NCBI GenBank assembly: GCA_035652535.1
Contig: DASRDP010000086.1
Span: 1-64,000 of the forward strand
DNA: 64,000 bases
DNA from: Chloroflexota bacterium
Lineage (GTDB): Bacteria; Chloroflexota; UBA6077; SHYK01
Direction: 5' to 3'
Each line of letters begins with the position of its first letter. Within the stretch, counting starts at the first letter, position 1. The notes beneath the pieces are model-generated. The model searched no databases. It worked only from the letters and a program-made list of their open reading frames with translations, and had not been told where the DNA came from. Made by a program: the position numbers and the translations under genes. Shown here piece after piece: positions 18,860 to 24,684 of the stretch.

Positions 18860-19129
18860 AGCCGCTTGCCAGAACGCGGCGTACACCTCGCCCAGGCAGC
18901 CGTCAACGAGACCTTCGCCCATTCGCTCATAGTGATTGCACGCGCGACGCCCCCAAACCAGGATACCAGCACCACCATGTGGGCCGCCGGACAAGGCGAT
19001 CATTGTCATTCCCATGTCACTTCCTCCCATCTGGCCTTCGCGGACGCGGCGCGCCCTGGCGCTGGAGCTCGACCGGTCGCGGCGGGCGCTGCAGCGAGGG
19101 GTGCGTACGATCCCCCGCGCGGTGGGTCG

Positions 19130-19426
19130 ATGGCGGGACGATCCCCCAGACGGAGCTCGACGCCCCTCTCCGCGCGGAATGTCCACCGCGCCTTCAAGCG
19201 CGCCCTGGCCTGCGCGGGCCTTCCGTCGTCGGTCCGGTTCCACGACCTCCGCCATTTCGCCGGGACCGCGATGCTGGCGGCGGGCGTCCATCCGAAGGTG
19301 GCGTCCGAGCGCCTGGGCCACAGCCAAGTGGGGATCACCCTGAACCTCTACAGCCACGTGGTGCAGGGCCTGGACGCGGACGCGGCCGAGCGAATCCAGC
19401 GCCAAATTCGCGGCTCGCTGGGCTAG
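19130..19426 (+). pseudogene. Tyrosine recombinase (phage-type integrase) C-terminal remnant
   Basis: The last about 85 residues match the C-terminal catalytic part of tyrosine recombinases: NVHRAFKRALACAGL, the HDLRH box, LGHSQVGITLNLYSH with the nucleophile Tyr, and a short tail. The core-binding domain and the first catalytic Arg are missing, and the upstream sequence is out of frame or unrelated, so the gene is broken. It ends 90 bases before a tRNA-Lys gene on the opposite strand, a usual integration site, so it is likely the scar of an integrated element. Confidence 0.72.
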
Positions 19427-19717: not shown

Positions 19718-19794
19718 GCGCCGGTAGCTCAGCGGATTAGAGCGCAGCCCTGCGGAGGCTGAGGCCGAGGGTTCGAATCCCTCCCGGCGTACCA
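19718..19794 (+). tRNA. tRNA-Arg (anticodon GCG)
   Basis: A 77-base cloverleaf including encoded CCA. The acceptor stem GCGCCGG pairs with CCGGCGT, the D-stem is GCTC/GAGC, and the anticodon stem CAGCC/GGCTG encloses the loop CTGCGGA. The anticodon is GCG, reading CGC and by wobble CGT. Most bacteria use ACG (modified to inosine) for these codons, so the G34 form is unusual. Confidence 0.92.
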
Positions 19795-20998: not shown

Positions 20999-21223
20999 CT
21001 ACCGCTCTTCTCGATCGGTCTCGCGCAGCACCTCGGCGATCCGAAGCTCCGCCCGATCGAGGAACTCGTTGCACAGATTGGCCAGGCGGACCCCCTCTTC
21101 GTATCGTGCAATCGCCTGGTCCAACGAGAGGGGCCCGCTCTCCAGCTCTTCGATGGACTTTCGAAGCCGCCCGAACGCCTCTTCAAAGTTGGCGGGTGGC
21201 TCGTTACTCTCGCTGCTCAGCAT
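20999..21223 (-). CDS. xseB: Exodeoxyribonuclease VII small subunit
   Basis: A 74-residue helical protein of normal family length. It shows the XseB signature NFEEAFGRLRKSIEELESGPLSLDQAIARYEEG (in parts). It forms a complex with XseA that degrades single-stranded DNA from both ends, in mismatch repair and recombination. The ATG at 21223 has AAAGGAG upstream and lies 20 bases inside the xseA end, a typical coupled arrangement. Confidence 0.92.
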   Translation of the reverse strand: MLSSESNEPPANFEEAFGRLRKSIEELESGPLSLDQAIARYEEGVRLANLCNEFLDRAELRIAEVLRETDREER

Positions 21224-22487
21224 AGGACCGCTCCTTTACGTCGCCCGATACACCGTCGGATCGGTCGAGCACGTCACCCACGAGCTGGCCCCGCGCCAGG
21301 CGCACGGCGATGCGCTCGCCCAGGGAGACCTGATCCGCGCCGGTCACGATACTCCCATCGATCGTACGGCTGCAGACCGCGTACCCGCGCGCCAGCGTCG
21401 TTTCCGGACTCAAGGCCGCGAGCTGCGACCGGCTCATCTCCACCCGCGAGCGCGCAAGCCCGGCGACCGCGCGGATCGCGCGCTTGCCGCGCGATCCCAG
21501 GTCATCCAGCGCCCGCCGGTAGTCGCCGATCGTGCGAGCGGGCGAATGCCGATCGAGCTGCTGCTCCGCCGCCTGCACCTGCATTCGCGCCACCCCGAGC
21601 ATTCGGTGCAGGGCGGCGGACCCTCGCTCGATCGTGCGCCGCGTCTCCTCGCAGAGCTGAGCGGCATCGGGCACCACCATCTCAGCCGCGGCGGATGGCG
21701 TGGGGGCGCGCAGGTCGGCGACGAGGTCGGCGATGGTCACGTCCACTTCGTGGCCGATGGCCGACACGATCGGAACGGCCGAGGCGAAGATCGCTCGCGC
21801 GACTCGCTCGTCGTTGAACACGGCAAGCTCCTCGGCCGCGCCACCGCCCCGGGCCAGAATGATGAGATCGAGCGGCCGTCGATCCGCGTGGAAGGCGTTC
21901 AATCGATCGAGCGCCGCCACGATCTGGCGGGGCGCATCCTCTCCCTGGACGCCGGCCGGCGCAAAGATCAGCTCCACGCAGCGGTAGCGCCGATTCAGAA
22001 CGTTCAGAATGTCATGGAGCACGGCCCCCGATTCCGAGGTGACAATCCCGATGCGCCGCGGCATTCGGGGGATGGGCCGCTTCCGCTGGCTCGCAAACAG
22101 GCCCTCCTGTTCGAGCCGGCGCCGCAGCAGCTCGAACTCGGCGTGCAGGCGCCCCGCGTCTCCCGGCAACACGACGTCGGCCACGAGCTGAAACGTGGAA
22201 CGCTGATCATAGATGCTCACCGAACCGTGGATGAGGGCCTCGAAGCCCGCGACGAGCGGAAGCGTCTGCCTCCGGAGGGCAGATCGAAACATCACCGCGG
22301 AGATGCGCGACCGCTCGTCCCGCACGGTGAAATAGGCGTGGCCGACCGTCGAACGCGTCACGTCCGCGATCTCACCGGTCACCCAGACGTCGCTGAGAAC
22401 GGGATCGTTGGCGAACAGATCCCGAATGTAGGCGACCAGCTCTTCGATCCGGAAGAAGTGGGCGCCAATGGGCGCCGGACTAGCCAT
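21204..22487 (-). CDS. xseA: Exodeoxyribonuclease VII large subunit
   Basis: A 427-residue catalytic subunit. The N-terminal OB-fold for single-stranded DNA (WVTGEIADVTRSTVGHAYFT, in parts) is followed by the nuclease domain with RIGIVTSESGAVLHDILNVLNRR (in parts), LIILARGGGAAEELAVFND and SAIGHEVDVTIADLVADLRA. A helical C-terminal region contacts XseB. Length and motif order are normal. It starts 21 bases after the BCCP-like gene and overlaps xseB by 20 bases. Confidence 0.95.
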   Translation of the reverse strand: MASPAPIGAHFFRIEELVAYIRDLFANDPVLSDVWVTGEIADVTRSTVGHAYFTVRDERSRISAVMFRSALRRQTLPLVAGFEALIHGSVSIYDQRSTFQLVADVVLPGDAGRLHAEFELLRRRLEQEGLFASQRKRPIPRMPRRIGIVTSESGAVLHDILNVLNRRYRCVELIFAPAGVQGEDAPRQIVAALDRLNAFHADRRPLDLIILARGGGAAEELAVFNDERVARAIFASAVPIVSAIGHEVDVTIADLVADLRAPTPSAAAEMVVPDAAQLCEETRRTIERGSAALHRMLGVARMQVQAAEQQLDRHSPARTIGDYRRALDDLGSRGKRAIRAVAGLARSRVEMSRSQLAALSPETTLARGYAVCSRTIDGSIVTGADQVSLGERIAVRLARGQLVGDVLDRSDGVSGDVKERSYAEQRE

Positions 22488-22508: not shown

Positions 22509-22964
22509 TCATCCCCCGGTCGCCTCGCCCGCGCTCCGCCGCATCACGGCGAGCGGTTGTCCGTACTCGACCGGTGTCCCGTCCTTCACCAATATCTCGG
22601 CGACGAGGCCGTCGCACGGCGCGACGACGCTGTTCTGAATCCCGAGCGTCTCGACGTGGGCGATGGCCTGGCCGGCGCTGACCGGCTCGCCCACATTCGG
22701 GAACGACGGGGGAGGTTGGCGATGAAAGACACCGACGAAGGGCGAGGTCACGACGACCGGCCCGTCCGACGACGCATGGACCACGGCCGGACGCGCCTGG
22801 TCCGCCTCGACGGCCGGCTCTCGGCTCACCCGAACCGACCCACCATCCCACTCGACCTCGATGTCCGTGATTCGGGTTCCACGCACCAGCTCCAGCAGGC
22901 GGCGGACGGCCACGTCGGCGGTCGCTGCCGATGCGCGGTCGGGTTTGGCGCCGGTCCGCTCCAC
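22509..22964 (-). CDS. BCCP-like biotinyl/lipoyl domain protein lacking the biotin-accepting lysine
   Basis: A 151-residue protein with the layout of acetyl-CoA carboxylase biotin carrier (AccB): a variable N-terminus, a Pro-rich linker, the thumb-like segment VTSPFVGVFHRQP, and a C-terminal biotinyl domain (VGEPVSAGQAIAHVETLGIQ, then APCDGLVAEILVKDGTPVEYGQPL). At the biotinylation site, the usual E-A-M-K-M is E-T-L-G-I, so Gly108 replaces the Lys. The protein therefore cannot be biotinylated there. No accC is adjacent, although efp-accB-accC order is common in bacteria. The GTG start has GGAGG five bases upstream. It resembles plant BADC proteins in lacking the lysine; a regulatory role is only a hypothesis. 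Confidence 0.8.
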   Translation of the reverse strand: MERTGAKPDRASAATADVAVRRLLELVRGTRITDIEVEWDGGSVRVSREPAVEADQARPAVVHASSDGPVVVTSPFVGVFHRQPPPSFPNVGEPVSAGQAIAHVETLGIQNSVVAPCDGLVAEILVKDGTPVEYGQPLAVMRRSAGEATGG

Positions 22965-22979
22965 TGAATCCTCCGGACG

Positions 22980-23543
22980 TTAGGAGGTTACCCGTTCGAT
23001 GTAGGTCCCGCTCCTCGTATCGACGCGGATCATCTCGCCAGTATTGACGAACAGCGGAACGTTGACCACGAGCCCCGTCTCCAGGGTGGCCGGCTTGGTG
23101 CCGCCGGACGCCGTGTCTCCTCGGAAGCCCGGCTCGGTCTCGGTGACCTGCAGGTCGACGGTGATAGGAAGCTCGACCCCAATTGGTTCGTCGTCGTACA
23201 TGAGGATCTCCAGCTCGAGCCCGTCTTTCAAGTAGTTCACGGCATCCCCGAGGATCGCGCTCCCGAGGGTGAGCTGGTCGAACGTCTCCTGATCCATGAA
23301 CACGTAGTTGGGCGGATCTTCATAGAGAAACTGCACCGTTCGATGATCGAGGCGCACGCGCGGCCATTTTTCCCCCGCCTGCACGGTTCGATCGATGAGG
23401 GCTCCGGTGCGGACGTTGCGCAGCTTCATGCGAACCTGGGCGCTTCCGCGCCCGATCTTCAGGTGCTGATAGTCGAGAACCTGGAACAGCTGCTTATCCA
23501 TCTCGATGACAACGCCCTTGCGGAGATCACCTGTCGAGATCAA
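22980..23543 (-). CDS. efp: Translation elongation factor P
   Basis: A 187-residue EF-P of normal length with the KOW-like N-terminal domain and two OB domains ending in FVNTGEMIRVDTRSGTYIERV (in parts). It relieves ribosome stalling at polyproline stretches. The tip loop that is post-translationally modified reads KIGRGSAQ, so the modified position is Arg32 rather than the Lys of the E. coli and B. subtilis proteins, and the usual Pro of the loop is Ile. The start is a TTG with GGAGG well placed. It overlaps the M24 peptidase gene by 17 bases. Confidence 0.95.
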   Translation of the reverse strand: MISTGDLRKGVVIEMDKQLFQVLDYQHLKIGRGSAQVRMKLRNVRTGALIDRTVQAGEKWPRVRLDHRTVQFLYEDPPNYVFMDQETFDQLTLGSAILGDAVNYLKDGLELEILMYDDEPIGVELPITVDLQVTETEPGFRGDTASGGTKPATLETGLVVNVPLFVNTGEMIRVDTRSGTYIERVTS

Positions 23544-24684
23544 GCAGTACCTCCGAGAGTTGAAGCTTCTTCGGCGACCGGGTCAGAACCTCCGCGCCGC
23601 GATCGGTCAGGACGACGAGGTCTTCGATGCGAACGCCCCCGAGCCCCGGGAGATACACGCCTGGCTCGATGCTGAATACCATCCCAGGCTGGAGGGGCAT
23701 ATCGCCGCGGGTACGCGAGATCCATGGCGGCTCGTGGATCTCCAGTCCGATCCCGTGTCCGAGCCCATGGACGAATTCGTCCCCGTAACCGGCGTCGCTG
23801 ATCACACCGCGTGCGACGGCGTCGACCTCGGCGCCGGTCATGCCCGGCTTCACGCGCTCCTCCGCCTCAAGCTGCGCGTCGAGAACGATGCTCCAAACCT
23901 CGCGCAGCTTGTCGGGCGCCGTCTCGATGCAGAAGGTCCGCGTCATGTCGGAACAGTATCCCCCAAGCCTCGCGCCAATGTCGAAGAGCACCAGCTCGTC
24001 CGGGCGAATCGTTCGATCGGATGGGACCGCGTGCGGGATCGCCGTGTTCGGGCCGGAGACCGTGATCGGGTCGAACGATACGTCTTCCGCCCCATGCGTG
24101 CGGTAATAGCTCTCGATCTCCCACGCCAGGTCGCGCTCGCGCCTACCCGCCGCGACGTTGCGGATGACGTGCGCAAAGGCCGCGTCGTTCAGCGCGATCG
24201 ACGCGCGCAGCGCCGCCAGCTCGTCGTCGTCCTTCAGCACGCGCAGCGAATCGACCAGGTCCGGGGCTGGCACGAGATCGGCGATACCGTCGAGCGCCGA
24301 GACGAACGCCTGCCACACCGCGTACGTGAGGTGACCGGACTCGAACCCGACGCGCGGCCCGGTGGGCCTGGCGGACGGCAGCGCCTCTCGGGCGACCTGC
24401 CGGAGCGCGTCCCGCGCAGTTGCGCCGGCCCCAAACACGACGGTCGTGAACGCGGGCGCCTCGGCCTCGGCGAGGGCGGATGTGCGCGGATCGGTGAGGA
24501 GATACTGCCGGGTGTCCGTGATGAACAGATAGCCGGCCGATTCGCGCGGCGGGAGGTCCGTTGCCGAATACCCACTCAGGTACCGCCGCGACTCCGGCTG
24601 CGATACCACGATGCCGTCCAGCTCGGCGCTGGCCAGCGCATCCCGAAGCCGCGTCAAACGCCCAGGATTGCCCGCCACCGTCAC
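23527..24684 (-). CDS. M24-family aminopeptidase (Xaa-Pro peptidase type)
   Basis: A 385-residue metallopeptidase. The N-terminal creatinase-like domain (SQPESRRYLSGYSA, VGFESGHLTYAVW) precedes the pita-bread catalytic domain. The two-metal ligands are visible: DIGARLGGYCSDMTRTF (both Asp), GLGHGIGLEIHEPP (His), FSIEPGVYLPG (Glu) and GVRIEDLVVL (Glu). Such enzymes remove N-terminal residues before proline. The location between topA and efp is common in several phyla. The GTG start overlaps the topA TGA by four bases. Confidence 0.92.
   Translation of the reverse strand: MTVAGNPGRLTRLRDALASAELDGIVVSQPESRRYLSGYSATDLPPRESAGYLFITDTRQYLLTDPRTSALAEAEAPAFTTVVFGAGATARDALRQVAREALPSARPTGPRVGFESGHLTYAVWQAFVSALDGIADLVPAPDLVDSLRVLKDDDELAALRASIALNDAAFAHVIRNVAAGRRERDLAWEIESYYRTHGAEDVSFDPITVSGPNTAIPHAVPSDRTIRPDELVLFDIGARLGGYCSDMTRTFCIETAPDKLREVWSIVLDAQLEAEERVKPGMTGAEVDAVARGVISDAGYGDEFVHGLGHGIGLEIHEPPWISRTRGDMPLQPGMVFSIEPGVYLPGLGGVRIEDLVVLTDRGAEVLTRSPKKLQLSEVLLDLDR

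Follow-up and report, generated by a model that had tools for sequence, protein, structure and literature searches.

What can an AccB-like protein still do once the lysine that accepts biotin is gone? The question is raised by a gene in the efp locus of a Chloroflexota bacterium, which lies within the 64,000-nucleotide stretch of DNA that we analyzed (the window). The gene is an ORF running from 22964 to 22509 on the minus strand, and its parts and neighbors are the following.

22509..22964, minus strand: lysine-less AccB/BCCP paralogue, 151 aa, GTG start (sequence, Pfam and NCBIfam matches, AccB alignment, fold model)
22969..22974, minus strand: ribosome binding site GGAGGA, four bases ahead of the GTG (direct sequence reading)
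22824..22937, minus strand: AccB-type N-terminal helix and beta-hairpin, residues 10-47 (fold model, with the published Chloroflexus BC1 hairpin for comparison)
22638..22652, minus strand: E-T-L-G-I codons, residues 105-109; the lysine position is residue 108, codon GGG at 22643-22641
22554..22574, minus strand: P-V-E-Y-G-Q-P codons, residues 131-137, a motif retained by lysine-less copies
22980..23543, minus strand: efp, elongation factor P, upstream neighbor (EFP_N, EFP and Elong-fact-P_C domains)
23527..24684, minus strand: M24 peptidase (pepP/pepQ-like), upstream of efp (domain search)
21204..22487, minus strand: xseA, exonuclease VII large subunit, downstream neighbor (domain search)
20999..21223, minus strand: xseB, exonuclease VII small subunit (domain search)

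An initial annotation of this DNA had claimed that the biotinylation motif EAMKM is replaced by E-T-L-G-I, and alignment with E. coli AccB (4hr7) bears this out. The hairpin reads V-E-T-L-G-I, with Gly108 at the position of the biotin lysine and Leu preceding it where AccB has Met. It would take two changes to turn the GGG codon into one for lysine, and the protein has no lysines other than K7 and K127, both of which lie outside the hairpin. The annotation was also right about a strong ribosome binding site, about a tight operon, in which 15 bases separate the gene from the efp stop and 21 from the xseA start, and about an otherwise well-preserved biotinyl domain, which matches Pfam Biotin_lipoyl (PF00364) over residues 72-141 with an E value of 8e-13. 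The best NCBIfam match is the BCCP family TIGR00531, at 66.3 bits and below its cut-off of 115.2, which is also missed by the lysine-bearing AccBs of two other genomes, G278 (94.4) and G264 (102.8). Judged as a member of the AccB/BCCP family, the protein therefore has the biotinyl-domain fold but neither the biotin-accepting lysine of E-x-M-K-M nor a score above the cut-off. Elsewhere in the window, an ORF at 18866-19426 (plus strand), whose C-terminal part resembles a tyrosine recombinase by eye, adjoins tRNA-Lys (19592-19517, minus strand) and tRNA-Arg (19718-19794, plus strand) and is likely a trace of an integrated element.

An AlphaFold2 model of the protein, computed from a small alignment of seven rows (mean pLDDT 74), consists of a helix (residues 10-29), a hairpin (34-47), a low-confidence linker (51-65), and a barrel (70-143) with a pLDDT of about 90. 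Gly108 occupies the turn that joins strands 100-106 and 109-114, the place that the biotin lysine would take. When the model was submitted to Foldseek, E. coli AccB came first (1bdo, E 3e-6) and Arabidopsis BCCP1 fourth (9a87).

The lysine is also absent from the closest relatives. In four genomes of the same family (G001-G004), the site reads VETLGIRN, VEVLGIRN (twice), and IETLGMRN, and G or R occupies it in other families of the order. Overall, 13 of the 16 genomes of the order have a lysine-less copy. None was found in the other three (G005, G006, and G011, 91-97% complete), which indicates that it can be dispensable; G006 has two lysine-bearing AccB-like genes.

We then looked at the whole phylum. 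A profile built from 12 lysine-less rows matched 199 of 400 genomes at an E value of 1e-18. We first took regions from the best-ranked matches and then added 42 genomes, mostly one per genus, and the site residue was read from the DNA in every counted case, score thresholds alone having been rejected as a means of separating lysine-bearing from lysine-less copies. A lysine-less copy is present in 113 of the 163 genomes read, across 24 family codes and 79 genus codes, which is not a prevalence rate because of this sampling and because the 201 nonmatching genomes were mostly not read further. Over 115 lysine-less genes, the site residue is G in 51, N in 43, R in 9, Q in 8, D in 3, and H in 1. 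The lysine is thus absent from relatives as well, contrary to the first refuting outcome named in the initial annotation, while the glycine itself is not conserved and gives way to N, R, Q, D, or H in other families. One genome, G040, has IEAMDIMNEVE at its efp locus (L386, contig C22, near 104296-104697), a canonical motif in which only the lysine has changed, to D, and it has a lysine-bearing AccB elsewhere; this suggests either a lysine loss still at an early stage or one that took place independently.

Lysine-less copies rarely occur on their own. A lysine-bearing AccB is also present in 109 of the 113 genomes, and the four exceptions (G004, G084, G243, and G388) are incomplete, at 76-88%; a search of 65 lysine-less genomes with a lysine-type profile brought up no lysine-bearing copy from G084 or G243. 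A second, lysine-bearing AccB occurs in 81 of the 84 genomes with a lysine-less copy at the efp locus and was seen in 4 of the 45 with a lysine-bearing copy there, a comparison between related genomes in which a dedicated second-copy search covered 31 of the latter. Those four, all from family f52 (L274-L277), have a second full-length AccB that also bears the lysine, with the motif IEVMKLMHS. A search of named genomes, which reaches close relatives only, returned six relatives, all lysine-bearing. The highest identity among the named-genome matches (42% over residues 66-147 of the window protein) is with a lysine-bearing AccB (L037) on CAMEYM010000013.1, a MAG contig titled Rhizobium sp. Q54, a title that may be wrong.

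The window's own genome (4.45 Mb, 98% complete) follows this pattern. It contains six biotin/lipoyl domains that we could find, among them the second AccB for which the initial annotation had proposed a search and whose absence would have refuted its proposal: it lies on contig C119, has the motif IETMKIFNE with the lysine present, and adjoins a KAS III (fabH) gene. There is one biotin carboxylase (BC) gene, flanked by fabG-like and nusB-like genes (ORFs read by eye), accA matches in two strong places, and one ligase gene of the BPL/LplA/LipB family. The window protein is hence a BCCP paralogue without a biotinylation motif that coexists with a biotinylatable BCCP, BC, and CT, as plant BADC proteins do. 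No ACC (acetyl-CoA carboxylase) gene lies beside the lysine-less gene in this genome.

Elsewhere in the phylum, the gene is often found among ACC genes. Of the 115 lysine-less genes, 84 are in the efp/xseA locus, 26 are beside ACC genes, and 5 are in neither setting within the DNA region examined. The 26 ACC-linked genes come from families f22, f30, f32, f40, f41, and f51, and their neighbors are accA and accC (16 genes), accA (8), or accC (2). In f22, f32, f40, and f41, the genes are arranged as accD-accA-[lysine-less accB]-accC; in regions that contain both copies, the lysine-bearing accB is on the same strand at a distance of about 3-14 kb. Two genomes, G278 (L262) and G264 (L263), have additional ACC gene sets in which lysine-less and lysine-bearing accB stand in tandem, ordered accD-accA-accC-[lysine-less]-accB and accC-[lysine-less]-accB, respectively (NCBIfam names), and each has two copies of either kind. 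A phosphoketolase gene follows the extra set of G278, raising the possibility that the supply of malonyl-CoA is tied to the phosphoketolase pathway. A fabH-like frame lies within 2.5 kb of 35 of 114 lysine-bearing copies in genomes with a lysine-less copy versus 0 of 115 lysine-less copies. The efp locus is nevertheless a usual site of accB, as had been suggested: in the 50 genomes in which no lysine-less copy was read, a count that includes some with only one gene fetched, 45 of 56 lysine-bearing genes are located there.

Lysine-less copies are under purifying selection. Across seven genera, the median dN/dS (NG86) ranges from 0.073 to 0.254 for lysine-less copies, one genus resting on one usable pair, which resembles the 0.040 to 0.211 of lysine-bearing copies. 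The proposal that the gene is maintained rather than decaying was therefore sound. What has been maintained became apparent when we compared motifs in 189 representatives, numbering residues as in the window protein. The 23 lysine-bearing copies standing alone at the efp locus combine the lysine (23/23) with E133 (23/23), Y134 (21/23), and V77 (21/23). In the 81 lysine-less copies, the lysine is gone (0/81) and Leu107 precedes its position (74/81), while E133 (78/81), Y134 (78/81), and V77 (81/81) are kept. The 79 other lysine-bearing copies, which may include a few fused biotin domains, have M107-K108 in every case (79/79), E133 in only 11, and T77 in 63. In other words, V-E-Y-G-Q is near-invariant in lysine-less copies and mostly lost from their lysine-bearing partners, so that what was conserved in the ancestor is now divided between the two.

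Quick trees of 126 and 189 rows, from which eight motif columns were left out, require one change between the lysine-bearing and lysine-less states (SH-aLRT 83 and 73, respectively), and in the 126-row tree the outgroup rows from other phyla fall on the lysine-bearing side. A more careful tree has 69 rows, one per family and context, after removal by hand of L305 (a BC-BCCP fusion by motif) and of L339 and L386 (long branches). It requires two changes, with the copies of f23, f30, f43, and f45 standing apart, and none of 200 bootstrap trees shows a single change; one lysine-less clade is not rejected by an AU test (p 0.397). We therefore dropped a single loss as a firm claim. Taken together, these trees indicate that the lysine was lost once or very few times, long ago.

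Since the lysine-less protein travels with the real carrier and is often encoded inside the operon of the same enzyme, it is probably a noncatalytic part of ACC. The reading we prefer, with a probability of about 0.65, is that it serves ACC as a nonbiotinylated subunit, assembling together with AccB and AccC in the manner of plant BADC. The starting point, in much of Chloroflexota, would have been the duplication of an ancestral AccB that probably stood at the efp locus. One copy (that at efp here, that in the accD-accA-accC operon in other families) would have lost the biotin lysine while keeping the BCCP fold, the N-terminal helix and hairpin, and V-E-Y-G-Q; the other would have kept the lysine and would carry biotin. 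Most likely, the lysine-less protein would then join the sub-complex of biotin carboxylase and AccB and hold it together or tune it, so that the working carrier would consist of two different AccB proteins, along the lines proposed for BADC, BCCP, and BC in plants. What the genomes show is the sequence itself, its conservation, pairing, operon membership, selection, and the partition of motifs; from these we infer co-assembly, a structural role, and any effect on activity. Against it counts the fact that lineages with a single lysine-bearing AccB at efp, the Chloroflexus family included, manage without a lysine-less copy, as do three genomes of the window's own order, and that no ACC gene adjoins the lysine-less gene in the window's genome; moreover, V-E-Y-G-Q could be conserved for a purpose unrelated to ACC.

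Several other explanations have to be set against a BADC-like subunit. For recent pseudogenisation or a sequencing error, nothing speaks beyond the missing lysine, and we consider either refuted: a GGG codon is not one slip away from lysine, same-family relatives lack it too, lysine-less copies recur in 113 genomes with dN/dS of 0.07-0.25, and V-E-Y-G-Q is near-invariant in them. Scarcely more credible is a carrier modified at another residue or holding another group. The hairpin fold is intact in the model, as such a carrier would need, yet the residues found at the site (G, N, R, Q, D, and H) share no modifiable side chain, and K7 and K127 are the only lysines that the window protein could offer. 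The position of the gene might instead reflect a role unconnected with ACC, perhaps alongside EF-P, exonuclease VII, or a different biotin enzyme, since the efp/xseA locus houses 84 of the 115 lysine-less genes. We find this improbable because the locus is equally home to ordinary lysine-bearing AccB in other lineages, so that the position looks inherited, and because 26 copies are among ACC genes.

The remaining alternative is a dominant-negative regulator, competing with AccB for biotin carboxylase and lowering ACC activity under some conditions. This would fit a protein that keeps the AccB fold and N-terminal domain while being incapable of biotin attachment, it would fit an efp locus away from the ACC genes, here and in most genomes, where separate expression is possible, and an inhibitory model has been described for plants (PMC11926652, PMC7712654). 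However, the 26 copies beside ACC genes would be made in step with them, the copy number tracks that of lysine-bearing AccB in G278 and G264, and one would expect a carrier acting on its own to have retained V77 and V-E-Y-G-Q, both of which are gone from the lysine-bearing copies. We therefore regard an inhibitor as unlikely. The copy-number pairing and the loss of V-E-Y-G-Q favor, without proving, a required partner over an occasional inhibitor, and the way in which the two copies have shed complementary motifs points toward a role in structure or assembly, not inhibition alone. Pressed further, the same pattern would describe a divided carrier in a large part of Chloroflexota, in which one AccB has the lysine, the other has the assembly surface (V-E-Y-G-Q and V-G), and neither works alone, i.e., an obligate and ancient counterpart of BADC-BCCP produced by complementary loss after duplication; the chances for and against this stronger version seem to us evenly balanced.

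If the BADC-like reading is true, the first committed enzyme of fatty-acid synthesis has an extra subunit in much of a phylum, according to a design known so far from plants. Whole operons with accD, accA, lysine-less accB, accC, and accB could be expressed in E. coli, and reconstitution could settle the BADC question. There is also a warning in these findings, namely that a protein may have been called AccB from its homology and yet lack the ability to carry biotin. A literature search brought up plant BADC and ordinary bacterial BCCP only, and no title or opening of an abstract dealt with an AccB of bacteria that lacks the lysine; this is weak as a negative because the search covers titles and the openings of abstracts and most subscription papers fall outside its coverage. 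In a review of carboxylase evolution, the passages on Chloroflexi leave BCCP phylogeny out (PMC3199775).

How does this family compare with known systems? With E. coli AccB/BCCP (4hr7, 1bdo), it shares the biotinyl-domain fold, the N-terminal helix and hairpin, and the linker, and it differs in having no lysine, Leu for the preceding Met, and a score under the TIGR00531 cut-off. The AccE-type subunits of actinobacterial acyl-CoA carboxylases are not known to be BCCP homologues. They are likewise small noncatalytic proteins that aid the assembly of a bacterial carboxylase (PMC11926652, PMC7835884). Within the same phylum, the BCCP part of a carboxylase can be structural: in Chloroflexus aurantiacus BC1 (PDB 8HZ4), according to PMC11077971, the BCCP beta-hairpin, and not the biotin core, bridges BC dimers. 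Unlike our protein, BC1 is a BC-BCCP fusion with the lysine present; the BC1 of G133, from the same phylum, reads the same as 8hz4 over 459 aligned residues.

The closest likeness is to plant BADC. BADC is reported to enter the BC-BCCP sub-complex (PMC11926652), and there and in PMC7712654 it is described as a glue, a cap, or a competitor of BCCP on BC, its standing as ACC inhibitor or assembly factor being disputed. Like Arabidopsis BADC1-3, the window family consists of BCCP paralogues that lack the biotinylation motif and exist alongside a biotinylated BCCP. The bacterial counterpart suggested by the initial annotation thus has strong genomic support in ACC-operon membership, near-universal pairing with lysine-bearing AccB, and purifying selection, while the regulation of ACC that was suggested with it stays conjecture. 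The likeness is one of design, seen through genomics, and we do not file the family as BADC by descent. Unlike plant BADC, these proteins are bacterial rather than plastid, they are encoded at efp or in an ACC operon, and their lysine-bearing partner has, reciprocally, mostly lost V-E-Y-G-Q.
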